From positions 1 to 33,381 of the forward strand of contig CAIPYM010000060.1 of NCBI GenBank assembly GCA_903869345.1: a DNA stretch of 33,381 nt. The letters run 5' to 3'. Shown in pieces: positions 1,881 through 32,116 of the stretch; the stretch's first letter is position 1; the number at the start of each line of letters is the position of its first letter. The stretch is from an uncultured Pseudomonadota bacterium. Lineage in GTDB: Bacteria > Pseudomonadota > Alphaproteobacteria > UBA9219. The translations under genes were made by a program, and so were the position numbers. The notes beneath the pieces are model-generated. The model ran no database searches and was not told where the DNA came from. It worked only from the letters and a program-made list of their open reading frames with translations.

Positions 1881-1882
1881 CG

Positions 1883-8654: not shown

Positions 8655-9212
8655 ATGCCGCGAGGTCGCACTCCGAAATCATTGGCCTTGAAAGCGGCCC
8701 AGGGGAACCCCGGTCGGCGGAAGAGTCGTGCGAAAGTGGCGGCGATCCCGACGATCACCGGAACGTTTGAGACCCCGAGCGGCCTGTCAGCGGGGGCGAA
8801 GCGGATCTGGCAGCAGCTGTCGGTTCACTTGGCGAGCGCGAACTTCGTGCGCCCGACGGACATGTTCGCCTTGGCGCGGTATTGCGAGCACATGTCGACG
8901 TGGTGGGCGAAGACGGCGGAGATCCAACGGGACGGCGAGACGGTCGTCACGAAGAGTAAGCACGTTGAGATGATCCGGCTTCACCCGGCGTTCCTTGTCC
9001 GCGAGCGCGTGGAGCGCCACCTTGTGGAGATGGAGGACCGGTTCGGACTGAACCCGTCCTTCCGCCTGCAGATTGTGAACAGGTTTTTGAACCAAGGGCA
9101 GACGCCGAGCGACGGACTTTTCTCGAACCCCGCCCCGACCGAGTCGAGCGAGAACGAGCCGCCATCCCCGATTGGCATTCTTCACGGCGGTCAACCCCGT
9201 GGCCTCAACTGA
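8655..9212 (+). CDS. terS: Terminase small subunit, P27 family
   Basis: A 185-residue protein with the N-terminal features of the P27 group: MPRGRTPKS, KAAQGNPGRRK, then a helical segment (GAKRIWQQLSVHLASANFVR) and ALARYCEHM. Small terminases bind the packaging site and deliver the genome to the large subunit. The AGGG ribosome site precedes the ATG by about 11 bases. The C-terminus overlaps the start of the large subunit, as is usual for this pair. Confidence 0.9.
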   Translation: MPRGRTPKSLALKAAQGNPGRRKSRAKVAAIPTITGTFETPSGLSAGAKRIWQQLSVHLASANFVRPTDMFALARYCEHMSTWWAKTAEIQRDGETVVTKSKHVEMIRLHPAFLVRERVERHLVEMEDRFGLNPSFRLQIVNRFLNQGQTPSDGLFSNPAPTESSENEPPSPIGILHGGQPRGLN

Positions 9213-10830
9213 TTTGCAACCCCCGACGTGCCCCCCAGGAGGTGAACGCCACGGGGCGACGTTTGACGCAACATCCGCCGACGTTGCCGTTGACTTTTTC
9301 CCGACGTACCTCCGCCACACCGAGGCCGAGTGGTGGGGAAAACCGTTCATTCTCTCCCCTTGGCAGCGCGACCTTGTGAGGGCGGCCTTCGGATGGAAGC
9401 GACGCGACGGAACACGGCTCATCCGCCAGGTTTACCTCGAGGTCCCGCGCAAAAACGGAAAGACGGAGTTCGCGGCGGGCCTTGCGCTCTTGATGCTGCT
9501 CGCGGAGGGCGAGCCCGGAGGCCAAGGGTATTCAATGGCCTGCGACAAAGAACAGGCAAGTATTGTTTTCAATAAAGCCTGCACCATGGTGCAACTTTCG
9601 CCAACCCTTCGCGGCCTCTGCGAGACGTTCAAAACCGCCATTTTCTGCCCGCAACTCAGCGCATCGTTCAAGCCGCTCTCGTCCAAACCCTCGTCCAAGC
9701 ACGGCTTCTCGCCGTTCTTTGCGATTGCCGACGAGCTGCACGAATGGCCGACCGGTGAGCTTCACGATGTGGTCCACAAAGGCACCGGAGCCCGCCGTCA
9801 ACCGCTCGAGATTTTGATCACCACCGCCGGAGTCCCTGGCGAGGGCTACGGATGGCAGATGCACGAATACGCACAGAACGTGGCCGCCGGGATCGTGGAA
9901 GACCCGACGTTTTTCCCCCTGATCTTCGCCGCCGACCCCGACGACGATTGGCGCAGCCCCGAAACCTGGGCCAAGGCCAACCCGAACCTCGGGGTTTCGA
10001 TAAAAAACGAATACCTGGAACAGGAAGTGACCCGCGCCCAGGGCTCCGCCCACCTGATCGCGGACTTCAAGCGCTACCATTTGAACCTCTGGAATTCGCA
10101 CACCGAAGGAGGCCTTGATATCAACGCCTGGGACGCCTGCGGCCTTCACCCCGTGAAGCTGGAGGACCTCAAAGGCCGCCGCTGCTACGGCGCACTGGAC
10201 CTTTCCTCCACGACCGACCTGACGGCGCTCACGGTCGTCGCGGAGCGCGAGGACGGCGGGTTCGACGCGTGGTGGCATTTCTGGATACCAACCGAAAACC
10301 TTGCCGAACGCATCCGCCGCGACCGCGTTCCGTTTGACCGCTGGATTGCCGAAGGGCTTATCACCGCGACCGAAGGCAACGTCGTGGACTACGACGCGAT
10401 CCGCGCGATGATCTCGGGCGGCGTGGAGCACGACGCCTTCACCGACGAACCGATTTGCACCCAAATTGAACTCGCCGAACTGGCGATTGACCGCTGGAAC
10501 GCGACGCATTTGATCACGCAGCTGATGTCCGACGGCGTGAACGTCGTCGCCTTCGGCCAGGGCTACGCCTCCATGTCGGGTCCCTCCAAGGAATTCGAAC
10601 GCCTCATTGGTGTCAAGCAGCTGAATCACGGGAAAAACCCCGTCGCGCGGTGGATGGCCAGTTGCGTGACGTTCAAAACCGACGGCGCGGAAAACATCAA
10701 GCCGGTCAAACCCGACCGGAGGCGCTCCACGAAACGGATTGACGGAATCGTCACCCTCATCATGGCTCTCGCCCGCGCGACCGCCGCTGTGCGCGAGGAC
10801 GACACGGTTCCCGACATCATTCTTTTGTAA
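9199..10830 (+). CDS. terL: Terminase large subunit
   Basis: With GTG at 9199 the protein has 543 residues. The ATPase domain shows Walker A PRKNGKT at 83-89 and Walker B FFAIADE at 173-179. A C-terminal nuclease domain begins with GALDLSSTTDLTAL, giving the first metal-binding Asp. The enzyme pumps DNA into the prohead and cuts it. TTG at 9172 is an alternative start, but GTG 9199 has GGCGG eight bases ahead and gives a normal 14-base overlap with terS. The family is the HK97/P27-linked terminase group. Confidence 0.93.
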   Translation: MASTDLQPPTCPPGGERHGATFDATSADVAVDFFPTYLRHTEAEWWGKPFILSPWQRDLVRAAFGWKRRDGTRLIRQVYLEVPRKNGKTEFAAGLALLMLLAEGEPGGQGYSMACDKEQASIVFNKACTMVQLSPTLRGLCETFKTAIFCPQLSASFKPLSSKPSSKHGFSPFFAIADELHEWPTGELHDVVHKGTGARRQPLEILITTAGVPGEGYGWQMHEYAQNVAAGIVEDPTFFPLIFAADPDDDWRSPETWAKANPNLGVSIKNEYLEQEVTRAQGSAHLIADFKRYHLNLWNSHTEGGLDINAWDACGLHPVKLEDLKGRRCYGALDLSSTTDLTALTVVAEREDGGFDAWWHFWIPTENLAERIRRDRVPFDRWIAEGLITATEGNVVDYDAIRAMISGGVEHDAFTDEPICTQIELAELAIDRWNATHLITQLMSDGVNVVAFGQGYASMSGPSKEFERLIGVKQLNHGKNPVARWMASCVTFKTDGAENIKPVKPDRRRSTKRIDGIVTLIMALARATAAVREDDTVPDIILL

Positions 10831-10839
10831 AAGGACGCG

Positions 10840-12096
10840 ATGTCGAAATTCTTGGACCTTTTTCGGCGCGGCGCAGAGACCAAGGAACCTTCGCGCCCCG
10901 AAAACAGCGACACAAACTCCTTTCTTCTCCCCCTGTACGGCAGCGAACGCCTGGAATTTGGGAAATCCTCCTCCGGGATGGTCGTCACCGAGCGCACGGC
11001 CTTGTCGGTCAGCGCGGTTTATTCGTGCGTCAGCCTGATTTCCGGCGCGATTGCGGGCCTTCCGCTCCCGATTTACCGGGCGACCACCGACGGTCGCACG
11101 CGAACGGACCATTCAACCTGGGCGCTCTTGAACCGTGCGCCCTCGCCGCTGTGCACGGCGGCGGTGTTTTGGGAGTTTTTGACAACCTCGCTTCTGCTTC
11201 ACGGGGACGCGTTCGCCAAAATCGTTCGCAAAAGCCCCTACAACCCCACCATTGAATCGCTGGAGCCCTGTCACTCTCAGAACGTTGAGGTTTGCCGGAT
11301 CAAGGACCGGTTGGCCTACCGCGTCCACGACCCGTTGACCGCGAGCGTGTCCGTCCTCGACCAGGACGACATGCTCCACGTCCCCGGCGTCGGGTTTAAC
11401 GGCCTGCGCGGGCTCACGCCACTCGCCTATGCCCTTCGCAACGCGGCGGGCATTGCGCTGGCGGCGGGCGAGCACACCGCGCGGTTTTTTGGCAACGGTG
11501 CGCGGCCTGATTTCATCCTGAAAACCCCGAAAACCCTGACGGAGGCACAAGGCGAGAAAATCCGCGAGACCTGGCAGGCCATGCACGAGGGGCCCTCAAA
11601 CGCCTACAAACCAGCCATTCTCCAGGGCGAGCTCGACATCAAAGAGCTCACGATGAAGTCCGAGGACGCGGAGCTGATCGCCACGCGCAACCTCCAGGCC
11701 GAAGACATTGCCCGCATCTTCGGCGTGCCCCCGCACATGATCGGCCTGACCGAAAAGGCGACCAGTTACGGCACGGGCGTTGAGCAAATGTCCATCGGGT
11801 TCGTCAAATACACGCTCATGCGTCACCTGACCAAGTTTGAACAAGAAGTAAACCGGAAGATCCTGCGCGACGGCTCCGTGTTTGCCGAATTCACGACCGC
11901 AGGGCTTGAGCGCGGCGACATCAAGTCCCGCTACGACGCGCACCGCGCCGCGATTGGCCGCGCCGGAGAGCCCGGATTCATGACCGTGAACGAAGTGCGC
12001 CGCGTGGAGAATCTCCCGCCCCTCGACGGCGGGGACGTTTTGAACAAGGGCGAAAAAACGCAACCCGATTCCAACGCTCCTTCCTCCCCCCTCTGA
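10840..12096 (+). CDS. Portal protein, HK97 family
   Basis: A 418-residue protein with a good ribosome site (AAGGA). Features of the HK97-like portal are visible: VSAVYSCVSLISGAIAGLPL near residue 50-70, LLLHGDAFAKIVR near 120, the segment GLRGLTPLAYALRNAAGIAL, and ARIFGVPPHMIGL near 295. The portal forms the dodecameric ring at the prohead vertex through which DNA enters and to which the tail attaches. Order TerL, portal, protease, capsid is the standard HK97 module. Confidence 0.94.
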   Translation: MSKFLDLFRRGAETKEPSRPENSDTNSFLLPLYGSERLEFGKSSSGMVVTERTALSVSAVYSCVSLISGAIAGLPLPIYRATTDGRTRTDHSTWALLNRAPSPLCTAAVFWEFLTTSLLLHGDAFAKIVRKSPYNPTIESLEPCHSQNVEVCRIKDRLAYRVHDPLTASVSVLDQDDMLHVPGVGFNGLRGLTPLAYALRNAAGIALAAGEHTARFFGNGARPDFILKTPKTLTEAQGEKIRETWQAMHEGPSNAYKPAILQGELDIKELTMKSEDAELIATRNLQAEDIARIFGVPPHMIGLTEKATSYGTGVEQMSIGFVKYTLMRHLTKFEQEVNRKILRDGSVFAEFTTAGLERGDIKSRYDAHRAAIGRAGEPGFMTVNEVRRVENLPPLDGGDVLNKGEKTQPDSNAPSSPL

Positions 12097-12108
12097 CAAG
12101 GACCCGCC

Positions 12109-12807
12109 ATGCCCCGCTTGTCCAAGCTTCTTGCTGAAAACGCCGGGAAGGGGACGCCCCTTCGCGCCCAGGTCGTGGGCAACGCGACCGAGATTCTCCT
12201 CTACGACGTGATTGACCCGCTCTGTGGCGCGTCGGCCAAAAGCCTTGGCGCAGCGCTGGCCGCCGCCGAGGGCCCCGTGACGCTCCGGATCAATTCCCCC
12301 GGCGGCGACGTGTTTGAAGGCCGCGCGATGGCCTCCCTCCTGCGCTCCCACCCCGCGCCCGTGACCGCCGTTGTGGACGGCCTTGCGGCGTCGGCGGCGA
12401 CAACCGTTGCCCTGGCCGCGACCCGCGTCAGCATGGTCAAGGGCTCGTTCCTGATGATCCACCGCTCCTGGAGCTTGGCGCTCGGAAACGCCGAGGACCT
12501 TTTGGCAACCGCCTCGCTTTTGGAAAAAATCGACGCCGAGATTGCCCGCGACTACGCCACCAAGTCCGGCCAGAGCCTCGACCAGGCTCTTGCCTGGATG
12601 AAGGCCGAAACCTGGTTCACGGCGGACGAAGCCGTGGCCGCGCACCTGGCCGACGCTCTCTTCGACGGAAAAACCGTCAAGGGCGCGTTCAACCTCACGG
12701 CCTACGACAACGTTCCTCGCGCCCTTTTGGACGATCCCGCGAACGACGAGCCCACGCCCGACCAGGTTTGGGCGGCGAACGACCGCCGCCTGCGCCTGAT
12801 CGGTTAG
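12109..12807 (+). CDS. Head maturation protease, ClpP-like
   Basis: A 232-residue ClpP-fold serine protease. The oxyanion region (INSPGGDVFEG, 61-71), nucleophile Ser95 in GLAASAAT, and His118 in MIHRSW are in the expected order; the third residue is probably an Asp near 142-148. It cleaves the capsid precursor and scaffold during prohead maturation. It lies between portal and capsid genes, as in HK97-type heads. About 75 bp with a terminator separates it from the capsid gene. Confidence 0.94.
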   Translation: MPRLSKLLAENAGKGTPLRAQVVGNATEILLYDVIDPLCGASAKSLGAALAAAEGPVTLRINSPGGDVFEGRAMASLLRSHPAPVTAVVDGLAASAATTVALAATRVSMVKGSFLMIHRSWSLALGNAEDLLATASLLEKIDAEIARDYATKSGQSLDQALAWMKAETWFTADEAVAAHLADALFDGKTVKGAFNLTAYDNVPRALLDDPANDEPTPDQVWAANDRRLRLIG

Positions 12808-12842
12808 TCCTGCCGGAGCAGCACTCCTGCAACGGTTTTCCC

Positions 12843-12864
12843 GCCCGCACCACGCGGGCTTTTT
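12843..12864 (+). terminator. Rho-independent terminator between protease and capsid genes
   Basis: GCCCGC (12843-12848) and GCGGGC (12854-12859) form a stem with loop ACCAC, followed by five T (12860-12864). The T-run is also half of a perfect 16-bp palindrome CTTTTTCATGAAAAAG (12859-12874), which could sequester it. Partial termination here would separate the levels of portal/protease and capsid RNA. Confidence 0.6.
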
Positions 12865-12884
12865 CATGAAAAAGGAGAAACCAC

Positions 12885-14165
12885 ATGCCGTCGATCCAAG
12901 ACCTCCGTGAAAAGCGGGCCGCTAAAGCGACCGAGGCCCGCCAACTTCTTGACGCCAACCCCGGTGCCAAATGGAACAGCGATCATCAGGCGGCCTACGA
13001 CGCCTTGATTGGTGAGATCGGTGACACCGAACAGCAGATCACCAACCACGAGCGCCTGATGGACCTCGAAGCGGACACCCGCTTTGACGGTGTGGTGGCC
13101 GAGAGCACCGCCAAGGCGCGTCGGGACCGTGGTCTCCCGCAGGATGCCAACGACCCCACGAAGGTTTTTTCCAACTGGATTCGCGGTGGGGACAAGGCCG
13201 TCTCAGCCGAGCAGTGGTCAGCGATTCGCAACACCATGAGCACGACCACCGGATCGGAAGGTGGCTACACCGTCCCCTCCCTGATCGGCTCGCAGGTTAT
13301 TGACGCTATGAAGGCCTTCGGGACCATGCGGGCTGTGTCCGAGACAATTTCGACGCAAAACGGTCAGGCCCTTTCGTTCCCAACCTCCGACGGGACTTCC
13401 GAAACTGGCGAGTGGGTGGCTCAAAACACAACCGCCACAGCGTCCGACGCCTCGTTCGGGACGGTCTCCCTCAACGTGTTCAAGGTGTCGAGTAAAATTA
13501 TCGCCGTTCCCTTCGAACTGCTCCAAGATTCGACCGTCGACATGATCCCGTTCCTCACCAACCGCATCGCTCAACGTCTGGGGCGCATCGGCAACACGGG
13601 CTTCACGGTGGGCACGGGGACCACGCAACCCGACGGCATTGTGCCCAAGGCGTCCTCGGGCAAGGTCGGAACCACGGGTCAGACCACAACGATCATCTAC
13701 GATGATATCATTGACCTCATGCATGCGGTTGATCCGTCTTACCGGGGCTCCAGGTGCGCGTTTATGGCCCCTGATGCCCTTTTGAAGGTCTTGCGGAAAC
13801 TGAAAGACACGGCAGGCCGACCAATCTGGACGCCCTCGTACGATTCCGGGATTACCCTGAAGAATCCGAGCGCCATGAACGGCGGATTTATCAACCAGAA
13901 CACCCCACAAGTCTACGACACCCTCCTCGGGTTCGATGTGTGGGTGAACAACGACATGGCGGCCCCTGCGGCCAACGCAAAGTCGTTGGTTTTCGGGGAT
14001 TTCAGCTACTACAAAATCCGCGACGCCATGGGCATCACGCTCTTCCGGTTCGACGACAGCGCCTACGCCAAACTGGGTCAAATCGGGTTCTTGGCCTGGG
14101 CTCGCATGGGCGGAAACCTCGTGGATACGAACGCGGTCAAGTACTACCAGCACTCGGCCACGTAA
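12885..14165 (+). CDS. Major capsid protein, HK97 family
   Basis: A 426-residue protein with an AGGAG ribosome site. The first ~115 residues are helical and charged (the delta or scaffold-like domain, LREKRAAKATEARQLLD), ending near STTTGSEGGYTVP, where HK97-type capsids are normally cleaved by the phage protease. The remainder has the HK97 fold features (SETGEWVAQN, FKVSSKIIAVPFELLQDS, IGNTGFTVGTGTTQPDGI). The capsid assembles the icosahedral head. A stable hairpin follows the stop. Confidence 0.95.
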   Translation: MPSIQDLREKRAAKATEARQLLDANPGAKWNSDHQAAYDALIGEIGDTEQQITNHERLMDLEADTRFDGVVAESTAKARRDRGLPQDANDPTKVFSNWIRGGDKAVSAEQWSAIRNTMSTTTGSEGGYTVPSLIGSQVIDAMKAFGTMRAVSETISTQNGQALSFPTSDGTSETGEWVAQNTTATASDASFGTVSLNVFKVSSKIIAVPFELLQDSTVDMIPFLTNRIAQRLGRIGNTGFTVGTGTTQPDGIVPKASSGKVGTTGQTTTIIYDDIIDLMHAVDPSYRGSRCAFMAPDALLKVLRKLKDTAGRPIWTPSYDSGITLKNPSAMNGGFINQNTPQVYDTLLGFDVWVNNDMAAPAANAKSLVFGDFSYYKIRDAMGITLFRFDDSAYAKLGQIGFLAWARMGGNLVDTNAVKYYQHSAT

Positions 14166-14171
14166 CCGTTG

Positions 14172-14202
14172 GGGAGAGCGCCTGTCCCCCGGGCGCTCTC
14201 CC
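14172..14202 (+). terminator. Stable hairpin after the capsid gene
   Basis: GGGAGAGCGCC (14172-14182) pairs perfectly with GGCGCTCTCCC (14192-14202), an 11-bp stem with a nine-base loop. The following bases are C/T mixed rather than a T-run, so it may stabilise the capsid mRNA 3' end rather than stop transcription completely. Confidence 0.5.
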
Positions 14203-14247
14203 TTCCTTCCCCCGTCCCGTTTTCCTTTTCCACCATCGGAGGTCACC

Positions 14248-14631
14248 ATGGCCGCTCCCGTCACCACAACCGCGCGTCTTCTGACTGACACGTTCATCGA
14301 CGGCGTCTTTTACCCCGGCAATTCCTTGATCACCGCTAAGACAAAAACCGTGAAGGAGCTTGTGAAAAGCGGCGAGGCCGATTCCAACGCCGCCGCCGTC
14401 GCGTACGGCCAAAGCATCGGCGCACCTGTGTTTATCCTGGCCGATTCCGATCCCGTTGAGACAGCGCCCCCCGCCGCGCTCGCCCCGGTCGCGGTTGCTG
14501 ACGCTTTGCCAGCCGATCAAGGCGCGGTGGCTCCCGCTTCCGATCCGGTTGTTGAGGGGGCCGACCCCGCGTCTTCGTCTGACCCCGCGTCCGAATCCGT
14601 CCCGCCGAAAAGCAAAAAAGCCAACGGCTAA
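14248..14631 (+). CDS. Hypothetical head-region protein
   Basis: A 127-residue protein with a GGAGG ribosome site. Residues 1-65 look folded (ARLLTDTFIDGVFYPGNSLI; VKELVKSGEADSNAAAVAYG), while residues 66-127 are Ala/Pro/Asp-rich and end in a basic KSKKANG tail. Small proteins in this place downstream of the capsid are often structural or head-associated, but I do not recognise this one. The stop overlaps the next ATG (TAATG). Confidence 0.7.
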   Translation: MAAPVTTTARLLTDTFIDGVFYPGNSLITAKTKTVKELVKSGEADSNAAAVAYGQSIGAPVFILADSDPVETAPPAALAPVAVADALPADQGAVAPASDPVVEGADPASSSDPASESVPPKSKKANG

Positions 14632-15230
14632 TGCTCCGCACCGTCTCCCTTGTGACGCCTCCAGCGGCTGAACCGATCACGCTGGAGGAGGCGCGGCTGC
14701 ATCTGCGCGTGACGGGGACGGAGGAGGATTCGCTCATCACGTCCCTCGTCACCGCCTCGCGTCGCGCCGCCGAGGGGAAAACAAACCGGGCCCTGATGCT
14801 CCAAACGTGGCGGCTCTCCCTGGATCGGTTTCCCTACCCTGACAACGCGCCAATCCTGTTGCCGCGCCCCCCGTTCGGTTCCGTCACCGCGTTCACGTAC
14901 ACGGATGCGACCGGGGCCGGGCAAACGTTGACGACAGGAGCCACAACCCTTGTTGACCGAGGCGTGTGTGCCGAACTTGTCCCGGCCTACGGCACGGTGT
15001 GGCCCGTGGCCCGCGAACACCCCGGCTCGGTGCAAATCACGTACACGGCGGGGTACGCTTCGGCGGCGGACGTGCCCGCCGAGATCAAAGCGTGGATGAA
15101 AATCCACCTCGCCACGCTTTACGAAAACCGCGACCTCGTTCTTCGCGGCCTTGAAGCCTCCGCCTCGTTCCTGCCCGGAAGGTTCGTGGACGGCCTTCTT
15201 GATCCTTACATCGTCCCCTTTACATCATGA
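14631..15230 (+). CDS. Head-tail connector, gp6-like (phiE125 gp8 family)
   Basis: A 199-residue protein. The N-terminal ITLEEARLHLRVTGTEEDSL and the helical pair SLVTASRRAAEGKTNRAL are characteristic of gp6-like connectors, which form the ring beneath the portal; the C-terminal part (VPAEIKAWMKIHLATLYENR) is also typical of the longer phiE125 gp8 type. It is followed by a 4-bp overlap with the next joining gene. Confidence 0.87.
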   Translation: MLRTVSLVTPPAAEPITLEEARLHLRVTGTEEDSLITSLVTASRRAAEGKTNRALMLQTWRLSLDRFPYPDNAPILLPRPPFGSVTAFTYTDATGAGQTLTTGATTLVDRGVCAELVPAYGTVWPVAREHPGSVQITYTAGYASAADVPAEIKAWMKIHLATLYENRDLVLRGLEASASFLPGRFVDGLLDPYIVPFTS

Positions 15231-15562
15231 GGACCCCCGGCCCCGGCGACCTGCGCGACATGGTAGCGATCCGCGCCCGCGTGGACGTGCCGAACGCTAC
15301 GTACGGAAGCGACGTGACGTACGGCGATCCCGTCCTTGTCTGGGGGCAAATCACCAACGTCGGCGGGGCCCTGTTTTACGGAACCCAGCAAATCGAAACA
15401 GGTGTTACGCACCGCATCGTGATCCGCACGGGCCCCACGATCACAGAGGCTCACGAGGTCCGCGCCCTGAACAAACGTTTTCGCATTCGCCGCATCACCG
15501 ACCTGGGCCGCGCCCGCGAGTACACGCTGCTCGACGTTGAAGAACTGGAGGCCGCATCATGA
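15227..15562 (+). CDS. Head-tail joining protein (head closure family)
   Basis: A 111-residue beta-rich protein beginning GPGDLRDMVAIRAR and ending with the segment FRIRRITDLGRAREYTLLDVEE, as expected for the SPP1 gp16/HK97 head-closure family. It should form the ring that closes the filled head and receives the tail. It overlaps its neighbours by 4 bp on both sides. Confidence 0.85.
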   Translation: MRTPGPGDLRDMVAIRARVDVPNATYGSDVTYGDPVLVWGQITNVGGALFYGTQQIETGVTHRIVIRTGPTITEAHEVRALNKRFRIRRITDLGRAREYTLLDVEELEAAS

Positions 15563-16002
15563 TTGGTTCCTCCACGGCGTCGGTTCGGATCAACATCCGC
15601 GAAATCAGCCCGCACGGGATCGTGTTTGAGAAAAAGTACGTCCGCGCGGCCATGCGTATCCTCGGCGGCGAGGTCCAGGCCGAGGCCCGAAAGCTTGTTG
15701 CTCGCCCAAGCGTCAGCCAACCCGGCGACTACCCAGGCAAGAAGACGGGGCGGTTGCAAAAAGCCATCAAATACCAGGTCAGCAAGCCGGGGTTTCTGGT
15801 GATCATCGCCCCGATGGATAAGACGGGGCTCTTCAAAAAAAACCAGTTCTACCCCGCCTTCCTCAACTACGGAGCCAACCGCAAACGCGGCGGAAAGCTC
15901 GCGCCGCGTGCGAACTACATGGCCGACGCGCTTGCGGCGAAAAGCGACCGCGTCCGCAGCGTTCTTCGGTCCGCGATTGAAAAAGCGCTGCACGCGGCAT
16001 GA
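15559..16002 (+). CDS. Tail completion protein, HK97 gp10-like
   Basis: A 147-residue basic protein. The segments AMRILGGEVQAEARKLV, GDYPGKKTGRLQKAIKY and FYPAFLNYGANRKRGGKLAP match the HK97 gp10-like neck/tail-completion group in order and spacing. It lies exactly where that protein is expected, after the head-closure gene and before the tail terminator, with 4-bp overlaps to both. Confidence 0.82.
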   Translation: MIGSSTASVRINIREISPHGIVFEKKYVRAAMRILGGEVQAEARKLVARPSVSQPGDYPGKKTGRLQKAIKYQVSKPGFLVIIAPMDKTGLFKKNQFYPAFLNYGANRKRGGKLAPRANYMADALAAKSDRVRSVLRSAIEKALHAA

Positions 16003-16592
16003 CCACAACTCTCGAACGCCTGATTGACGCGCTCCGTACCAAGGTGCCCGCGTTTCAAAACCGTGTCTTCGGCGCGGCGGAGTTTACGTCCGCGTTTGAC
16101 GACGCGGGTGCTGTCCCGACGTCCTCGGCCTGGGTTGTCCCCCTGTCCGACAGCGCCGAAAGCCTCAGCCAGACGGGAACGTGCGTGAGGATCACGGAAG
16201 ATTTTGGGGTCTACGTCCTGATGGACGCCTCGACAGACGGGCGCGGCCAAGCGGGTGTCACGGGTGTGGCAGGCGCTCGGACGCTTCTGTTCGGGGCGCT
16301 TCTGGGGTGGCAACCGACCAAGGACCACAACCCGATCATCTACACGGGCGGCGAGATCGTCCGGCTCGACCGCGCACGTCTTGTCTACCAGTTCACGTTT
16401 CAAACCGCCTTCACGATCTCCGGAAAAGAGGCCGGAGCCCTCAGTCGTCAGCAAGCCGACCTCCAAGCCGTGGGTGTCCCCGGAACCCACGGAACAAACG
16501 GAATCCTCTCCGCCGTTGACCTGGCCGTTGATTTCTCCCCCGGCGGGACAACGCCGGACCACGAAGCCCTGATCAACCTGCCCACCACGTAG
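15999..16592 (+). CDS. Tail terminator protein (gp37-like)
   Basis: A 197-residue protein with ERLIDALRTKVPAFQNRVFG at the start and GEIVRLDRARLVYQFTFQT in the middle, the pattern of tail terminators of Mu-like and related phages. It caps the tail tube and stops its growth at the end of assembly. The C-terminal ~50 residues are extended and probably flexible. Position directly before the DUF2635 and sheath genes supports the call. Confidence 0.78.
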   Translation: MTTTLERLIDALRTKVPAFQNRVFGAAEFTSAFDDAGAVPTSSAWVVPLSDSAESLSQTGTCVRITEDFGVYVLMDASTDGRGQAGVTGVAGARTLLFGALLGWQPTKDHNPIIYTGGEIVRLDRARLVYQFTFQTAFTISGKEAGALSRQQADLQAVGVPGTHGTNGILSAVDLAVDFSPGGTTPDHEALINLPTT

Positions 16593-16602
16593 GAGCCTTC
16601 CG

Positions 16603-16806
16603 ATGCGCGTTATTCCCGCCCCCGGCCTGATCGTTCACGACCCCGAGCGGGGCGACCCCCTGCCTCCGGAAGGCCGCGACGTTGTCGACAGTTCGTACTG
16701 GTACCGCCGCGTGCGCGACGGCGACGTGACCGTGGTCGAGACGCCCGAGCCAGCCCCTGAATCCCCGACACCCCCCGCAACGCCCAAGAAAGGAGCCTCT
16801 AAATGA
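16603..16806 (+). CDS. DUF2635 protein (Mu gp38-like)
   Basis: A 67-residue protein. The core VIPAPGLIVHDPERGDPLPP, then YWYRRVRDGDV, is diagnostic of DUF2635, a small protein found immediately upstream of the sheath gene in Mu-like phages. The role is not known. The proline-rich tail ends in KKGASK and overlaps the sheath ATG by 4 bp. Confidence 0.88.
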   Translation: MRVIPAPGLIVHDPERGDPLPPEGRDVVDSSYWYRRVRDGDVTVVETPEPAPESPTPPATPKKGASK

Positions 16807-18293
16807 CCGTCCCCTTCAACAACATTCCCTCCAACGTTCGTCCGCCTCTGTTCTACGCCGAGATGGACAACTCGATGGCGAACATTTTCAACCTCAACCA
16901 AAAGACCCTGTTGGTTGGCCAAAAACTGACGGCGGGCGTTGGCGTTGCCGACACACCGATCATTTGCTCGTCCGAAGCCGACGCGATGAACCTCTGCGGT
17001 CGCGGCTCCATGCTCGCCCGCATGTACACGTTTGCGCGCGCCCAGGACCCCTTGGGTGAGATTTGGCTCCTGCCCGTGGTCGAACCCGGCGCGGGCGTGG
17101 CCGCAACAGGCACGATCACGCTGACCGGGACGGCCACGGCCTCGGGCACGCTGTTCACCACCATCGCGGGCCAGCTGGTCCAATCGGCGGTGACATCCGG
17201 TGACACGCCAACGGTGGCCGCTGCCGCTCTGACCGCCGCGATCAACGCCAACACCGACCTCCCTGTCACAGCTTCCGCTGCTGCAGGCGTCGTCACGCTG
17301 ACCTCGCGGTGGAAGGGCGAGACGGGCAACGACATCACGGTCCTCTCCAACTACCGGGGCGCGGCAGGCGGTGAACGCACACCCGCCGGGGTCACGGTGG
17401 CGATTGTCGCCATGGCCATCGGGGTCGGAGCGCCCACGCTCACGAACGCGATTGGCGCGATGGGGGATGAAGAGTTTGACTTCATTGCCCTTCCCTTCAC
17501 CGACACAACCTCGCTGGATGCGTTCAAGGTTGCGATGAGCGACACAAACGGGCGCTGGGCTTATAACCGCCAGGTTTACGGCCACGTTTATGGTGGAAAG
17601 CGCGGGAACCTTTCGGCGCTCACCACGTTCGGCGGCGCTCGGAACGACCAGCACGCGACGATTGCTGGCGTGGAGACGGGTGTTCCAACGCCCATCTGGG
17701 AATACGCGTCGGCCTACACCTCGCGCAACGCCGTGTTTCTCAAGGTTGACCCGGCGCGGCCCACGCAAACTGGCGTGTTGTCGGGTGTGCTCCCGGCCCC
17801 GGCGAGCGGTCGGTTCACGCTCACCGAGCGTCAGTCCCTCCTCAGCTACGGGATTGCCACATCGTTCGTGGGCGGCGGCGCGGTTCTTATCGAACGCGCG
17901 ATCACAACGTACCAAAAGAACGCGTTCAACCAGGCGGACACCTCGTACCTGGACAGCGAGACGCTCCACACGAGCGCCTACGTGATCCGGTACCTGCGCA
18001 GCATCGTCACGTCAAAGTACGCTCGGCACAAACTGGCCGACGACGGGACGGTGTTTGGGGCGGGCGCGGCGATTGTCACGCCAGCGATCATCAAGGGCGA
18101 GCTTATTGCCGCCTACAGGCAGCTTGAATTCGACGGCATTGTTGAAAACGCCGACGCGTTCAAAGCCGCTTTGATCGTGGAGCGACCCGCGAACGATCCG
18201 AACCGCCTGAACGTCCTCTTGGCGCCGGACTACGTGAACCAACTGCGCGTCTTCGCGGCCCTGGTCCAGTTCCGGCTCCAGTCCGCCGCTTAG
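16803..18293 (+). CDS. Tail sheath protein, Mu gpL-like
   Basis: A 496-residue protein. The start (FNNIPSNVRPPLFYAEMDNS) and the end (VNQLRVFAALVQFRLQSA) match Mu-like sheaths, and the protein contains the usual surface domain rich in Thr, Ala and Val (about residues 100-200). The subtilisin-like sheath core lies around residues 210-350. Sheath subunits surround the tail tube and contract to drive it through the host envelope. It establishes that the tail is contractile although the head is HK97-type. Confidence 0.93.
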   Translation: MTVPFNNIPSNVRPPLFYAEMDNSMANIFNLNQKTLLVGQKLTAGVGVADTPIICSSEADAMNLCGRGSMLARMYTFARAQDPLGEIWLLPVVEPGAGVAATGTITLTGTATASGTLFTTIAGQLVQSAVTSGDTPTVAAAALTAAINANTDLPVTASAAAGVVTLTSRWKGETGNDITVLSNYRGAAGGERTPAGVTVAIVAMAIGVGAPTLTNAIGAMGDEEFDFIALPFTDTTSLDAFKVAMSDTNGRWAYNRQVYGHVYGGKRGNLSALTTFGGARNDQHATIAGVETGVPTPIWEYASAYTSRNAVFLKVDPARPTQTGVLSGVLPAPASGRFTLTERQSLLSYGIATSFVGGGAVLIERAITTYQKNAFNQADTSYLDSETLHTSAYVIRYLRSIVTSKYARHKLADDGTVFGAGAAIVTPAIIKGELIAAYRQLEFDGIVENADAFKAALIVERPANDPNRLNVLLAPDYVNQLRVFAALVQFRLQSAA

Positions 18294-18781: not shown

Positions 18782-19072
18782 ATGCCCGATACCATCGTTC
18801 AACTCTCCAAGCCCATCAGCGCCCACGGCGAGGAGGTCACCTCCCTCACGCTCCGCGAGCCCACGGGCAAGGACGTGAAGGAGTGTGGCGTTCCCTTCGG
18901 TATCGAAGGGGGTGGAGTGGTTCTCCAACCAGCACCCGCCGCCAAATTGATCAGCCGCCTCGCGGGGATCCCCTCGTCCTCGGTGGATGCTCTATCGGCT
19001 CCTGATTTTCTGACCCTTGCAAACACCGTCATCGGTTTTTTCTCGTCGTCTCGCGAGGCACAGACCCCCTGA
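18782..19072 (+). CDS. Tail assembly protein (Mu gp41-like, Phage_TAC_7)
   Basis: A 96-residue protein with ITAHGEEVxxLTLREPTGKDV-type start (here SKPISAHGEEVTSLTLREPT) and KLISRLAGIPSSSVDALSA in the middle, which identifies the gp41 tail assembly chaperone family. It helps the tape measure and tube assemble. The family's core appears complete; the last residues (SSSREAQTP) may be altered by the deletion that begins about here. In intact Mu-like phages the tape measure gene follows, but here the sequence changes directly to the end of the gp43 gene. Confidence 0.88.
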   Translation: MPDTIVQLSKPISAHGEEVTSLTLREPTGKDVKECGVPFGIEGGGVVLQPAPAAKLISRLAGIPSSSVDALSAPDFLTLANTVIGFFSSSREAQTP

Positions 19073-19473
19073 TTCAGCGCCTGTTTGGGGCCTTGAACGA
19101 CCTCGTGCGCGTGACTCTTTTGGCCCAAGGCGCTGCGGTCTTGGCCAACACGCCCGTCTCCTCCTACCAAGACGGGCTTGCGGCGCGAAAGGTGATGACG
19201 GCGGCCCTGGACACCGAGATGCTGACCGCGACGGATGATGACGTGGTGTTGGCACTCGGGGATTTGCGCACCGCCGTCCACCAAGACCTAAGTGCCAGGG
19301 CCCTCCAAGCCGCGCGGCTGATCACGTTCACGCCGCCCGCGACGCTCCCCGCGCTCGCGCTCGCCTACGACCTCTACGACGACACCGAACGCGCCGACGA
19401 GATTTTGACCCGCAACCGCGTGCGCCACCCCGGCTTTGTCCCCCCCTCGCCCCTCCAGGTGCTCGCGGTATGA
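19072..19473 (+). pseudogene. C-terminal remnant of the Mu gp43-like 'DNA circularization' tail/baseplate protein (N)
   Basis: The frame is open from the stop of the gp41-like gene to 19473 (about 133 residues, no SD; TTG 19093 or GTG 19105 could start it). Its end, TPPATLPALALAYDLYDDTE, then RADEILTRNRVRHPGFV, is the very conserved C-terminus of Mu gp43/N proteins, which normally have about 400-500 residues. The N-terminal domain is absent. The tape measure gene, which should precede it, is absent too. A deletion joining the end of gp41 to the last third of gp43 explains this. The stop still overlaps the hub gene by 4 bp, so the right side is in its original arrangement. Confidence 0.82.
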
Positions 19474-20519
19474 ACGTGACAACCGAACCCGTGACCTTGC
19501 TGGTCAATGGCCAGAGGCACGAAGGCTGGAAGGACGTCCGCGTGACGTGCGGCCTGGACCGTGCGGCGCGGGACTTTGACGTGTCGATCACGCGGAACTG
19601 GCCCGACCAACAGAGGGGAACATCCTTGCCGATCACGATTGGCGACGGCGTTGTCCTCATGCTGGGCGCAGACCGGGTGATGACGGGGTATGTGGACGCG
19701 ACGCCCGTTCGGTACGACGCCAACAGCCTGACGCTGGGGATCGCGGGGCGCAGCAAGACGGCGGACCTGATTGACTGCTCCGCCGCCGACAGTCCGGGGC
19801 AGTGGACGAACGCCCGCGTTGAACAGATCGCCCAGGCCCTGGCCGCGCCCTACGGCGTGACCGTTCGGACCGAGACCCCGACGGGCGAGCCGATCCCGGA
19901 CCACCAAGTGCAACAGGGGGAAACGGCGTTCGAAAGCGTGGACCGTCTGCTCCGTGCGCGGCAACTGCTGGCCACGGACGACGCGGAGGGAGCGTTGGTC
20001 CTGGTCGCGGCGGGTGGACAACAAGCAGATACGGCCTTGTCCCTCGGGCAGAACATCCTTTCGGCGGACTATGCGTGCAGCGGGCGCGACCTGTTTGCGA
20101 CGTACGTTTGCAAGGGCCAGGGCTCGGGCAACGATCAAGCGTTCGGGGCCGATGTGTCGGAGGCCTCGGGCCGCGCAACGGACATCGACATCAAGAGGAA
20201 CCGTTACCTTGTCCTGCAGCAGTCGGGGCAAGCCGACAATCTGACGTGCCAGGAACGCGCGGCGTACGAGCGCGACCTTCGCAAGGCCCGCGCCCGAACC
20301 GTGGTCTACACTGTCCAGGGGTGGCGGCAGGACAGCGGGGCCCTGTGGACGCCAAACCTGTTGGTGCAGGTCACCGATTCGTGGTGCGGGATCAACCGTC
20401 GCCTGTTGCTGTCCGAGGTCACGTACGCGCTGGGCGATCAAGGGACGCGGTGCTCACTCACGTTGTTGCCCGCCGAGGCCTACGTGGACGCGCAAAAGCG
20501 CCGTAGCGAGGCCACGTGA
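19470..20519 (+). CDS. Baseplate hub / tail protein, Mu gp44 (P)-like
   Basis: A 349-residue protein. The start (TLLVNGQRHEGWKDVRVTCG), the segment MTGYVDATPVRYDANSLTLG and GIAGRSKTADLIDCSA are typical of Mu gp44, the trimeric hub that plugs the tail tube. Further on come IAQALAAPYGVTVRTET and SVDRLLRARQLLATDD, also standard. It overlaps the gp43 remnant and the spike gene by 4 bp each. Confidence 0.9.
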   Translation: MNVTTEPVTLLVNGQRHEGWKDVRVTCGLDRAARDFDVSITRNWPDQQRGTSLPITIGDGVVLMLGADRVMTGYVDATPVRYDANSLTLGIAGRSKTADLIDCSAADSPGQWTNARVEQIAQALAAPYGVTVRTETPTGEPIPDHQVQQGETAFESVDRLLRARQLLATDDAEGALVLVAAGGQQADTALSLGQNILSADYACSGRDLFATYVCKGQGSGNDQAFGADVSEASGRATDIDIKRNRYLVLQQSGQADNLTCQERAAYERDLRKARARTVVYTVQGWRQDSGALWTPNLLVQVTDSWCGINRRLLLSEVTYALGDQGTRCSLTLLPAEAYVDAQKRRSEAT

Positions 20520-21055
20520 GCATCGAACGCCTAATCGCACGGTCGCTTGCGCCGCTCGCGCGTCGCGTGGCCAACGCCACCTCGCGGGGTGTCGTGTCGG
20601 TCGTGAACGCGGGCCTGAAAATGCAGGGCCTTCAGGTACGGCTTTTGGCGGGCGAGGTGAAAGACGGCCTGGAACACGCCGAGCCCTACGGCTTCACGGC
20701 GCACCCGCACCCCGGTGCCGAGGCCGTTGTTCTGTTTCTGGCCGGGGACCGGAGCCACGGGGTTGTGCTGACCACACCCGACAGGCGTTACAGAATCGCG
20801 AGCCTCGCGGCGGGAGAAGTCGCGGTCTACGACGATCTCGGGCAATTCGTGAAACTCGGGCGGAACGGGATCACGATTCACACGGATCAAACCCTTCGCC
20901 TTGAAGGGCGGGACATTCAAATCCACGCGACAAACTCTTTCAGGCACGACGTGAACGGACACGGGCAGCACTGGTTCCCAACCCGCGTTGATCCTTGGAC
21001 CACAGGCGCGACCGCCGGAACGCCGCACCCGATCACACCGCCGGAGATTTCCTAA
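20516..21055 (+). CDS. Baseplate spike / assembly protein, Mu gp45-like
   Basis: GTG at 20516 (GTGA overlap) starts a 179-residue protein. It has the N-terminal OB-like region (MQGLQVRLLAGEVKDGLEHA; HPGAEAVVLFLAGDRSHGVV) and a beta-helical C-terminal part (VKLGRNGITIHTDQTLRLEG) ending with a His-rich tip segment. This protein forms the membrane-piercing spike below the hub. Confidence 0.9.
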   Translation: MSIERLIARSLAPLARRVANATSRGVVSVVNAGLKMQGLQVRLLAGEVKDGLEHAEPYGFTAHPHPGAEAVVLFLAGDRSHGVVLTTPDRRYRIASLAAGEVAVYDDLGQFVKLGRNGITIHTDQTLRLEGRDIQIHATNSFRHDVNGHGQHWFPTRVDPWTTGATAGTPHPITPPEIS

Positions 21056-21483
21056 TGCTGGGCCAAGACGCCTCGGTGATGGTTGACGGACAGGTTGTGT
21101 CCCTCGGCATGACGCCGCTCGACCCCTTGGCGCGGTCCGCCCTGATCAGCCTCTTCACGTGGCGACGCGCGGACACCGGAGACGTGGCCAAGGGCGAGGC
21201 GCGTTGGGGTTGGTGGGGCGACACGTTTGCGGACAGCCGAATCGGTTCGCGCCTTTACCTGCTCGCGCGGGAGAAAATCACGCCGGAGACCATCGCCCGA
21301 GCCCGCGAATACATCGCCGAGGCCCTGCAGTGGATGTTGGACGACGGCGTTGCAAGCAACGTGAGCGTGACGGTGGAACGCGCCGGACTGACGCGCCTGG
21401 ACGCGCTCGTGATCCTGACCCGCGCCGACGGAACCAACCTTGACCTTCGCTTTTCCAACCTGTGGACGGCCCTGAATGTTTGA
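21055..21483 (+). CDS. Baseplate protein, Mu gp46-like
   Basis: The ATG at 21055 overlaps the stop of the spike gene (TAATG); a longer frame upstream is not needed. The 142-residue product has SALISLFTWRRADTGD, RWGWWGDTFADSRIGSRLYL and REYIAEALQWMLDDGVAS, the signature of the gp46 family, a baseplate wedge component comparable to T4 gp25-type parts. It lies between spike and gp47, as in Mu. Confidence 0.9.
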   Translation: MLGQDASVMVDGQVVSLGMTPLDPLARSALISLFTWRRADTGDVAKGEARWGWWGDTFADSRIGSRLYLLAREKITPETIARAREYIAEALQWMLDDGVASNVSVTVERAGLTRLDALVILTRADGTNLDLRFSNLWTALNV

Positions 21484-22516
21484 ACGCCCAACCCTTACGT
21501 CCCTGATTGACCGCGTCCGCGCCGACGTGTTGTCGCGCCTGCCAACGGACGACGTCTTGCGCCATTCGGACGCCGAGGTCCTGGCCCGCGTCCTGGCCGG
21601 AGCCACGCACGGGCTCTACGGGTACCTGGATTACCTCTCCCAGCAGCTTCTTCCCGACACGGCCACGGACTTCCTGGATCGGCACGGGAGCCTTTTTGGG
21701 ATCCTGCGCAAATCAGCGGCCCGCGCCACGGGATCCGTGACGCTGACGACCACGGCGGGCGTCGTGATCCCCGCCGGGACGGTCCTTCGCCGCGCGGACC
21801 AGACGCTGTACGAGACCGTGGCGGAGCAGACCGCGACGGGCACGACGCTTGCCGTGGACGTCCAGGCGCAAGTCGCGGGCGAGGCCGGGAACGCCTCGGC
21901 CTCTACACCCCTCACACTCGTCAGCCCGATTGCGGGCGTGGCCTCATCCGTCGTGGCCGGGACACTTTCGGGCGGGGCGGACCTTGAGGACGACGAGGCT
22001 TACCGCGCCCGTATTCTGGCCCGGTGGCGGCAAGCCCCGCACGGTGGGTCCTGGCAGGATTACGTCGCGTGGGCGCTGGAGGTGGAGGGCGTGACCCGCG
22101 CCTGGTGCTCTCCTGAAGAACTCGGCCCCGGCACCGTGACGTTGCGCTTTGTCCGCGATGATGACGCAAGCCCGATCCCCGACGCGGGCGAGGTCGCCAC
22201 CGTCGCCGCCCACATTGCTGAGGTTCGACCCGTCACGGCCTCTGTGACCGTGGTTGCTCCCGTGGCCGCGCCGCTGACGTTCACGATCTCCGGGCTCTTG
22301 CCCGCCACGACAGCGGTCCGCGCGGCGGTGGAAAGCGCCCTTCGCGCCTTGCTTCGGAGGGAATCCGAACCCGGCGAGCCCCTTTTGATTAGCCACATCC
22401 GCGAGGCGATCTCCACGGCGGCGGGGGAGTACGACCACGCCCTCGTTAGCCCCTCAGCGGACGTGACGCACGGAACAGGTGCCATGGCGACGTTCGGGAG
22501 CATCTCATGGGTCTGA
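21476..22516 (+). CDS. Baseplate J-like protein, Mu gp47-like
   Basis: A 346-residue protein. FERPTLTSLIDRVRADVLSR at the start, GAFGILR-like DRHGSLFGILRKSAARATGS, and EDDEAYRARILARWRQAPHG followed by WALEVEGVTRAW are typical baseplate J motifs. The protein builds the wedges of the baseplate. It overlaps both neighbours. Confidence 0.92.
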   Translation: MFERPTLTSLIDRVRADVLSRLPTDDVLRHSDAEVLARVLAGATHGLYGYLDYLSQQLLPDTATDFLDRHGSLFGILRKSAARATGSVTLTTTAGVVIPAGTVLRRADQTLYETVAEQTATGTTLAVDVQAQVAGEAGNASASTPLTLVSPIAGVASSVVAGTLSGGADLEDDEAYRARILARWRQAPHGGSWQDYVAWALEVEGVTRAWCSPEELGPGTVTLRFVRDDDASPIPDAGEVATVAAHIAEVRPVTASVTVVAPVAAPLTFTISGLLPATTAVRAAVESALRALLRRESEPGEPLLISHIREAISTAAGEYDHALVSPSADVTHGTGAMATFGSISWV

Positions 22517-23103
22517 CCGCCACCGACTACCGGGACCAGCTTCAAGCGCTGACCCCCTTCGGGCCCGCATGGCCGCGTGACGAAGGGGCCGCACTGACCG
22601 CGCTCTTGGACGGCCTTTCCCAGGAATTGGCCCGCGTGGACGCGAGGGCCTTAAACCTTGTTGACGAATCCGACCCGCGCCTGACGTACGAGATGCTGAC
22701 GGATTGGGAACGCGCGGCGGGCTTGCCGGATGCGTGTTGGATTTTGTGGAACGGTTCGACCACCGCCTCGCGCCGCGCGGCGCTTGTTCAACGCCTGACC
22801 TCGGTCGGGGGACAGAGCCGCGCGTACTTCATCGCCCTGGCCGCCGCCCTTGGCTACGCGGGCGCGACGATCACTGAGTTCACGCCCTTCGCCTGCGGGT
22901 CAGTCTGCACGGCCCCGCTCAACACGGCCTCCGCCGGGTGGCCCTGGGCGTGGAGGATCACACTCCCCCTTCTCACGGTGACCGTGATGCGGTGCGCGGA
23001 CAGCTGCGCCGACGCGATCCGCACCTGGGGCGACGACGTTGTGGAATGCGTCCTCCAGCGCCTTCGACCGGCCCACACCACCCTTCAAATCGCCTACGTC
23101 TAA
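22507..23103 (+). CDS. Baseplate/tail protein, Mu gp48-like (YmfQ, DUF2313)
   Basis: A 198-residue protein with YRDQLQALTPFGPAWPRDEG at the N-terminus and a Cys-containing C-terminal segment with MRCADSCADAIRTWGDDVVE and LQRLRPAHTTLQIAY, the standard pattern of YmfQ/DUF2313 proteins. They connect the baseplate to the fibres. It overlaps gp47 by 10 bp and is followed 12 bp later by the fibre gene. Confidence 0.9.
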   Translation: MGLTATDYRDQLQALTPFGPAWPRDEGAALTALLDGLSQELARVDARALNLVDESDPRLTYEMLTDWERAAGLPDACWILWNGSTTASRRAALVQRLTSVGGQSRAYFIALAAALGYAGATITEFTPFACGSVCTAPLNTASAGWPWAWRITLPLLTVTVMRCADSCADAIRTWGDDVVECVLQRLRPAHTTLQIAYV

Positions 23104-25712: not shown

Positions 25713-26254
25713 GCCTTCTCCTGATCCTCTCCCTTGCCATCGTCTTCGGCGTTCTGGGCCGGATGCTCGGCGGTTGGCTGAAACCCGGCGGGAGCACGAC
25801 GTGGTGTCGTCTGGTGTGCTGGTCGATCCCCGTGGCGGTGTGGGGATTGGTCGCGTTTGGGCCCTGGGGCCTCTTGTGCGGCCTTGGCGCGTACCTCGGG
25901 CGCTTGATCCCTCACACGTGGTGGTTCGGCGGGCCAACCGTCGGAGACGCTGTGGCGATGGGCCTGGTTGGTTTTGCGCGCGCCGCCCTGATCCTGTCCC
26001 CTTGCGCCTTGCTTGGACACCCTGAAGCCATGGTCTTCGCCCCGCTCGGGCTCGTGTCCGGCGTGGCGTACTGGGTGGGTTGGCATTGGATGGAGAGCGT
26101 GAAGAGCCCGATCACCATCCCCTCGTTCACATGGCGCGGCGTTCTGGTGGACGGCGGGAACTTTGCCGAGAGCGGAACCGGATGGGCTGAGTTCCTGACC
26201 GGCGCGGATTTTGGACTGATGATGGGAGGATGCTTATGTCTCTTGACCCTGTAA
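25709..26254 (+). CDS. Membrane protein of unknown function in the lysis cassette
   Basis: A 181-residue protein overlapping the endolysin stop by 4 bp. It has hydrophobic segments at about 2-20, 33-60, 80-105 and 108-128 and a soluble stretch at 130-165. I do not recognise it. Its location between endolysin and holin suggests that it affects lysis timing or membrane function. Its end overlaps the start of the holin gene by about 19 bp. Confidence 0.6.
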   Translation: MSLLLILSLAIVFGVLGRMLGGWLKPGGSTTWCRLVCWSIPVAVWGLVAFGPWGLLCGLGAYLGRLIPHTWWFGGPTVGDAVAMGLVGFARAALILSPCALLGHPEAMVFAPLGLVSGVAYWVGWHWMESVKSPITIPSFTWRGVLVDGGNFAESGTGWAEFLTGADFGLMMGGCLCLLTL

Positions 26255-26661
26255 CGGCTGTCCTGGATGTCGGCAGCAAGATCATCGACCGCCTGTGGCC
26301 CAACCCGACCGAGCGCGACGCCGCGAAGCTGAAACTGCTTGATCTGCAGCAGTCCGGCGAGCTGGCACGGCTCGCGGCGGAAACAGACCTCGCCAAGATG
26401 CAGGGCGAGACCAACAAAGCCGAGGCCGAGAACGCCTCCCTTTTCGTCGCGGGCTGGCGGCCCTGGATCGGCTGGGTCTGCGGCGCGGCCTTCGCCTATC
26501 ACTTCGTCCTGCAACCCCTGATCGCCTTCATTCTCGCGGCGTGCGGGAAGACCTTTCCCCTTCCCACGTTCGATATCGAATCCCTGCTCACCGTCCTCCT
26601 CGGCATGCTCGGCCTCGGCAGCCTACGGACGGTCGAAAAACTCAAAGGCGTGAGCCGATAG
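26236..26661 (+). CDS. Holin, 3TM family
   Basis: ATG 26236 is chosen over ATG 26230 because GGGAGGA precedes it at the right distance. The 141-residue product has an N-terminal charged helical part (about 1-65) and then the signature GWRPWIGWVCGAAFAYHFV with two more hydrophobic stretches (to about 130), as in the 3TM holin family of Alphaproteobacterial phages and gene transfer agents. The holin opens the inner membrane for the endolysin. It is the last gene of the + strand late operon. Confidence 0.87.
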   Translation: MSLDPVTAVLDVGSKIIDRLWPNPTERDAAKLKLLDLQQSGELARLAAETDLAKMQGETNKAEAENASLFVAGWRPWIGWVCGAAFAYHFVLQPLIAFILAACGKTFPLPTFDIESLLTVLLGMLGLGSLRTVEKLKGVSR

Positions 26662-27537: not shown

Positions 27538-27584
27538 GACCCGTCCCCGAACGCTCGGTGGACGGATTATACAAGGTAAACGTT

Positions 27585-28442
27585 ATGCTCCCGTTAACGA
27601 CCGCCGACGGGCAAACCGTCGTGCAAACCGTCCGTCCCGTGGCCTCGTACGTCGGGGGCAAGCGCGTCCTGGCCCCCGAGGTGATTGCCCGGATCAACCG
27701 GACGCCCCACAAAACCTACGCCGAGCCCTTTGTCGGCATGGGCGGCGTGTTTCTTCGCCGGACGATGCGCCCGCGTGCCGAGGTGATCAACGACATCAGC
27801 CAGGACGTGACGACGTTTTTTCGCATCCTCCAGCGCCACTATGCGGCGTTTTTGGAGATGCTGAAGTTTCAGCTGACCACGCGGGCCGAGTTTGAGCGCT
27901 TGAGCAAAACCGACCCCGCGACGCTGACGGACCTCGAACGCGCGGCGCGGTTCCTCTACCTGCAAAACTGCGCCTACGGCGGCAAGGTCTCAGGCCGCCA
28001 CTTTGGCGTGGACCCCGGCTCGCCCGGAGCGTTCAACGTGCTGAAACTCGTCCCTATGCTGGACGACGTTCACGAACGCCTCGCGGGCGTTGTGATCGAG
28101 CGCCTTCCCTGGGACGATTTTATTCCCCGCTACGACCGCCCCGATGTGCTGTTCTACCTCGACCCGCCGTACTGGGGGAGCGAGGACTATTACGGCAAGA
28201 ACGTCTTCGCGCGGGATGATTTTACCCGCCTTGCGGATGTTCTCCGCGCCCTGCAGGGGCGATTTCTCCTTTCGATCAACGACGTCCCCGAGATCCGTGA
28301 CCTCTTCGCCTGGGCGACCGTCGAGACCGTTGACATCACGTATACCGTTGGCGGTGGTGGAACGACCGAGCCTTCGACCGAACTCATTATCTCGTCCCCG
28401 CCGCCCGTCCGTGTTTTGCAACCTGAACAGGAAAGGGGGTGA
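27585..28442 (+). CDS. Orphan DNA adenine methyltransferase, D12 class (Dam-like)
   Basis: ATG 27585 with AAGG upstream gives 285 residues (GTG 27558 is a possible earlier start). The SAM-binding motif is AEPFVGMGGVFLRR (about 46-59), and the catalytic motif IV is DPPYWG at 193-198. SYVGGKR near residue 21-27 is the usual N-terminal motif of D12 enzymes. The enzyme should methylate adenine N6 in a short site, often GATC, but the specificity cannot be read here. No restriction partner is adjacent, so it is likely an orphan that protects phage DNA or alters regulation. It ends 63 bp before a strong terminator. Confidence 0.9.
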   Translation: MLPLTTADGQTVVQTVRPVASYVGGKRVLAPEVIARINRTPHKTYAEPFVGMGGVFLRRTMRPRAEVINDISQDVTTFFRILQRHYAAFLEMLKFQLTTRAEFERLSKTDPATLTDLERAARFLYLQNCAYGGKVSGRHFGVDPGSPGAFNVLKLVPMLDDVHERLAGVVIERLPWDDFIPRYDRPDVLFYLDPPYWGSEDYYGKNVFARDDFTRLADVLRALQGRFLLSINDVPEIRDLFAWATVETVDITYTVGGGGTTEPSTELIISSPPPVRVLQPEQERG

Positions 28443-31571: not shown

Positions 31572-32116
31572 GGTGTTCAAACTCCTGACCGCCCTGGGCG
31601 CCGGGGAACACAAAGCCCCGCGCCCCTGAAGGGGGTCTCTTAAAGGTTAGACAAAGGGGTGAAAACGGAGGCATCTTTACGTGTGTTCCCTACTGATGTG
31701 CGGCGCAAAGCGCCCTTACAGATCAGCCTCGTCACTTTCAAAACCCAAAACGGCACGAGGAGTCCTCTTGAAAAGAGGACCGCTTTGAAGGGATCCAGGG
31801 CGTCTCCGGCATCTCGGCCATGGAGCAACATCCCCTCATCCCCGCCCACGTTCGGGGCTTGTCGCCCCCGTCGGCCTTCGCGGAGCCCCTAGGCCCCTCG
31901 CACTCAAGCACGACCTTACACACACCCTGAGGGATTCACAAGGGCTTTAAAACGCAATTATTCCTGATGAGAAACTAATACTTTTTCTCACACGGGGGTT
32001 CTTGGTTCCGCTGCCCCCGAAAAACGGCTCGGGATCCCGACGTTCGTCGGGATGACGGGTTTTCTTAGACTCCGCCCCCCCCATCGTCAATCGCGAACGA
32101 CGTGAAGCGATCCAGC
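31572..32116 (-). promoter_or_regulatory. 545-bp non-coding upstream region of rne (probable long 5' leader)
   Basis: No gene is visible between glpX and rne. On the rne strand the region is rich in hairpins: GTCCTCTT-loop-AAGAGGAC (31762-31780), GGCGC-AAA-GCGCC (31702-31714) and others. E. coli rne is controlled through a long structured leader that RNase E itself cleaves, and this layout would allow the same. A clear promoter was not found; an AT-rich stretch at about 31945-31990 is the best place. Confidence 0.45.
32032..32057. repeat. Second REP-like palindromic unit, downstream of glpX
   Basis: GATCCCGACGTTCGTCGGGA is a good inverted repeat and is followed by TGACGG. It shares the segment CGGGATGACG with the copy at 28731-28755. 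The two units bracket the rne gene and its leader. Confidence 0.5.

Follow-up and report, generated by a model that had tools for sequence, protein, structure and literature searches.

Whether a contractile tail operon has lost its tape measure gene and most of its gp43 gene while the other tail genes stay open, and what such an operon could still build, is the question raised by this locus. The window, that is, the whole stretch of DNA analysed, is contig 60 in full (33,381 bp); the bacterial genome it belongs to measures 1.74 Mb in 76 contigs and is 99.3% complete.

The prophage and its tail operon

From left to right, the window encodes an HTH-domain repressor, a replication region with primase-type matches, the small and large terminase subunits, a portal, a ClpP-type head protease, an HK97-type capsid, connectors, sheath, tube and gp41. 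These are followed by a remnant of gp43, gp44–gp48, a tail fibre, an endolysin, a GTA-type holin, a DNA adenine methyltransferase and host genes. The SfV class of phages combines an HK97-type head with a Mu-type tail. Since HK97-type head genes and Mu-type tail genes are both in the window, the element is a temperate SfV-type prophage in the host chromosome. Two hallmarks of this type were found (terminase, portal, ClpP protease and capsid of HK97 type; sheath, tube, gp41 and gp44–gp48 of Mu type), and another, a tape measure gene and a complete gp43 between gp41 and gp44, is absent from the window. The prophage is a deletion derivative of the SfV type, not an intact member. The features are as follows, with identities to the related prophage L018 (contig C32 of genome G005).

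9172..16592, + strand: head module (terminase large subunit, portal, ClpP-type protease, HK97-type capsid, head-tail connectors)
16803..18293, + strand: tail sheath protein (Mu gp39-like), intact; phrog_165, E 3e-197, full length; 72% identity with L018
18351..18713, + strand: tail tube protein (Mu gp40-like); Pfam Tail_tube, E 3e-32
18782..19072, + strand: gp41-like tail assembly chaperone, intact; Phage_TAC_7, E 4e-14
19090..19473, + strand: C-terminal third of gp43 (DNA circularisation/tube initiator, part of the helix-rich domain), here gp43C; phrog_184; 56% identity with the L018 gp43 C-terminus
19470..20519, + strand: baseplate hub gp44/P, intact; phrog_177, E 9e-122
20516..21055, + strand: spike gp45; Phage_Mu_Gp45, E 5e-29
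21052..21483, + strand: baseplate wedge gp46; phrog_180, E 2e-42 (matched as ORF 20995-21483)
21476..22516, + strand: baseplate wedge gp47 (Baseplate_J), intact; Baseplate_J, E 2e-71
22507..23103, + strand: baseplate wedge gp48, intact; Phage_Mu_Gp48, E 3e-31

The original prediction placed the C-terminus of gp43 directly after the gp41 stop at 19072, and this is borne out, with gp43C coding resuming by about 19090. The ORF 19093-19473 matches phrog_184 (baseplate hub) only at profile positions 280-406 of 411 (E 1e-28) and phrog_17109 (DNA circularisation) at positions 93-201 of 204, and the retained piece aligns to residues 391-486 of 495 of the Mu gp43 chain 9ki1. It shares the overlap ATGA (19470-19473) with gp44. 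Joining of the tail genes by 4-bp overlaps, as first described, holds for gp43C/gp44 and gp44/gp45 but not for sheath/tube and tube/gp41, which lie about 57 and 68 bp apart. Apart from the deletion, the head, neck, tail and lysis genes are intact; the ORFs for head, tail and baseplate are open and follow the same gene order as in G005.

The element had been called Mu-like, which is right for the families and order of the tail genes but not for the element as a whole, which is SfV-type with an HK97-type head. Sheath, tube, gp41, gp43C and gp44–gp48 share order and families with the phage Mu tail (gp39–gp48), whereas the window differs from Mu in its HK97-type head, in having no recognised Mu-type transposition module and in lacking gp42 and residues 1 to about 390 of gp43. 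No family for transposase A or target protein B was matched in the window, and the early region gives the primase-type matches. An R-type tailocin was also considered and rejected, because head and packaging genes are kept and the tape measure is absent, the reverse of the tailocin pattern. The window, cut on the left by the contig end, gave no site-specific integrase; the integrase and the left end of the prophage would lie past the contig start, and five integrases are found on other contigs. A circular contig is unsupported, as a terminal overlap of 15-200 bp is absent. The right flank of the prophage consists of the host genes for RNase E/G (rne, 28977-31613) and the fructose-bisphosphatase GlpX (glpX, 32117-33109), both on the minus strand.

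Size of the loss against related prophages

The nearest relatives are the prophages L018 (G005:C32) and L019 (G006:C437), from two genomes of the same bacterial family as the host. Their gene order matches that of the window across head and tail (the G006 contig spans the tail side only), with 50-76% protein identity over the tail operon and 40-76% across the colinear head and tail genes. Unlike the window, they keep the order gp41, gp41' (in the -1 frame), a tape measure protein of about 570 aa (PhageMin_Tail, E 4e-27), a 400-aa gp43 with a DNA_circ_N N-domain (E 2e-33) and gp44. Equivalent alignment boundaries lie 2,690 bp apart in these relatives and 47 bp apart in the window, which therefore lacks about 2.64 kb. 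This comprises the remainder of gp41', the tape measure gene and residues 1-272 of the 400 of gp43. The predicted loss of the tape measure gene and the N-terminal two thirds of gp43 is thus confirmed, and the comparison with related prophages that had been proposed gives its size.

Several kilobases had been expected between gp41 and the end of gp43, and in 50 related loci with both genes aligned, a set that includes near-duplicates and is not a count of independent lineages, the interval is indeed 2,389-3,246 bp (median 2,945). The short form occurs in none of the 50, nor do they contain a family in which a short gp43 follows gp41 as a rule. Measured from the sheath end to gp43C, 85 loci span 2.9-4.3 kb and the window 0.78 kb. 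The short gp41–gp43C form was sought in IMG/VR, GTDB genomes, the family and order of the host, and the phage records, and did not turn up. No other genome of the host genus was among those searched, and a second assembly of the species was not found.

Short gp43 ORFs (163-264 aa) in G016, G075 and G083 were examined as counter-examples and rejected. G016 and G075 both encode the N-domain in a different frame immediately before the short ORF, with a tape-measure-like ORF ahead of the N-domain in G016; these are split genes, not deletions of the window type, and the G083 ORF was judged on its N-domain match alone. The gp43 of these two genomes is divided between overlapping ORFs, one for a DNA_circ_N-like N part and one for the C part; the pair lies at 9496-10841 of L020 (G016) and at 1117-2357, reverse strand, of L021 (G075), and represents either a natural split or a frameshift. 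L018 and L019 represent one prophage: their head and tail genes are identical across 9 kb or more, and the two genomes are assigned to different genera. Either a recent transfer or cross-contamination would explain this (the listed contamination of G006 is 9%).

The junction and the -1 reading frame

Two further features define the junction.

19034..19042, + strand: slippery site GGTTTTTTC for a -1 gp41/gp41' frameshift, conserved in most relatives
within 19043..19092, most likely about 19084-19092, + strand: deletion junction

Towards the end of gp41, most relatives have GGTTTTTTC or a site like it, and their -1 ORF extends 32-57 aa beyond the gp41 stop (the gp41/gp41' arrangement). In the window, the frame after a -1 slip reads LVVSRGTDPLIQRLFGALNDLVRVTL...; it is open already ahead of the gp41 stop and runs on to 19473, entering gp43C where the relatives have gp41'. 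Its start, DPLIQRLF, resembles the start of the relative's gp41', EKLVDRLF, and similarity to gp43 follows from ALNDLVRV (ALRDLVRG in the relative). The gp43 alignment can be stretched with a gap up to VVSRGTDPL, and therefore the breakpoint is placed only within 19043-19092, its exact position being beyond resolution at about 56% identity. A gp41::gp43C frameshift fusion is predicted, with the join gp41 / LVVSRGTDPLIQRLFGALNDLVR. The open -1 frame would also fit a selected fusion; since an open frame across the junction has a probability of 1/3 by chance, it is not by itself evidence of selection.

The predicted fusion matches phages of the SfV group in both its parts. Shigella/Enterobacteria phage SfV (NC_003444), SfI, SfII and SfIV have, like the window, a Mu-type tail region with a gp41-like tail protein and a DNA circularisation protein. 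In the phage records, in contrast to the window, the two matched parts lie at separate places and are never joined, and the window has neither the tape measure nor the N-domain of gp43. None of 50,697 phage records holds at least 80% of the fusion in one place, and a DNA pattern of the junction-side peptide had no match in IMG/VR.

Search for the missing parts in the host genome

A separate tape measure gene elsewhere in the host genome, a check proposed with the original prediction, was sought with the relative's tape measure protein (best E 0.12 across the whole genome) and with PF10145, which gave nothing above cut-off. PF07157 (DNA_circ_N) had no match in the whole genome, and the remnant was the only match of the relative's full gp43. 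The sheath family search of the genome finds this single copy, thus no second Mu-type tail. A very diverged tape measure could escape such a search, because tape measure proteins vary fast. The whole-genome searches argue against relocation of the segment and against a helper prophage within this genome.

Origin of the junction and consequences for particles

The segment is lost relative to all comparable relatives, neither of its parts occurs anywhere else in the genome, and the structural genes that remain are intact. A real internal deletion of about 2.6 kb in an SfV-type prophage, leaving it defective, is the most likely explanation. A single deletion, presumably by one-step illegitimate recombination, would have fused the start of gp41' to about codon 273 of gp43, so that the tape measure protein and the tube-initiator (DNA_circ_N) domain were lost. 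With the slippery site kept, the operon would give gp41 plus a minor gp41::gp43C fusion without known role, and translation across gp43C could still couple to gp44 through the ATGA overlap.

In phage Mu, the tube-like domain of gp43 nucleates the tail tube and its helix-rich domain contacts the wedges, while the tape measure protein determines the length of the tail and acts with hub and spike to seal the centre of the baseplate and hold it together (PMC11915804). These roles support the earlier expectation that no normal tails form without a tape measure. In the siphophage TP901-1, knockout of the tail chaperone gpG or gpT gives capsids without tails (PMC4493119). Since the tape measure protein and the tube-like domain of gp43 are both lost, the prophage should be tail-defective, and if induced it would be expected to give heads at most, possibly with partial baseplates. 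Among the three outcomes first offered (a cryptic prophage, complementation or an altered particle), the cryptic one is best supported.

An assembly artefact, in which the organism carries the segment and the contig is a chimeric misjoin or a collapsed minority variant, is unlikely, although the draft state of the genome (76 contigs) counts in its favour. In the relative, the gp41/gp41' region and gp43 share exact repeats of 9 bp at most, too short for ordinary k-mer collapse to be favoured, and both sides of the junction are syntenic with the same relative. The missing segment is also on no other contig of this 99.3% complete genome, although it could have sat on a short unbinned contig that was dropped. 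Far less probable is that the tape measure and tube initiator come in trans from an unbinned plasmid or from a second phage or prophage. Intact, unaccelerated tail genes would suit such a helper, and the integrases on other contigs suggest further elements, but a source within this genome finds no support, as a second sheath, a tape measure above the Pfam cut-off and DNA_circ_N are all lacking.

The remotest of these readings is an altered particle, in which a working gp41::gp43C fusion would serve tapeless or very short contractile structures, such as a tailocin-like or injection-like derivative, maintained by selection. The in-frame -1 fusion through the retained slippery site and the baseplate genes without decay are compatible with it. 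G016 and G075 encode the N and C parts of gp43 separately, so the C-domain can be a polypeptide of its own, but both keep the N-domain. Here the tube initiator domain is gone as well, which makes an altered particle unlikely; the fusion is found in none of the 50 comparable loci or the phage records, and capsid and packaging genes are retained, whereas tailocins lose them.

Age of the probable deletion and neighbouring genes

The remnant appears free of decay. Against 12 outgroups, mean identity is 46.8% for gp43C of the window and 48.8% for that of the relative, compared with 45.2% and 46.5% for gp44, and GC3 is 0.85 in gp43C and 0.84 in gp44; by these measures gp43C appears to change no faster than in the relative and to keep the codon bias of its neighbours. 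The deletion had been called recent, and it looks so because, this loss apart, the genes for head, neck, tail and lysis remain intact. The open frames and the unaccelerated gp43C give indirect support and fit a recent loss, whose age these data do not date.

Deletion-inactivated prophages are common, and this one is most likely an ordinary case of prophage decay with a clean, probably recent cut. It offers a clean natural example in which one cut removes the adjacent length ruler and tube initiator and leaves the rest open. Were it expressed, it would serve as an existing null mutant, in an SfV-type phage, of both tape measure and tube initiator; its importance would grow only if sister strains retained the fusion.

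Within the lysis module of the prophage, the holin (26230-26661) matches GTA_holin_3TM, the holin of gene transfer agents (E 3e-27). At the right prophage edge, the D12-class DNA adenine methyltransferase (27558-28442) has 69% identity with the copy in the G006 prophage, although the other lysis-side genes differ.
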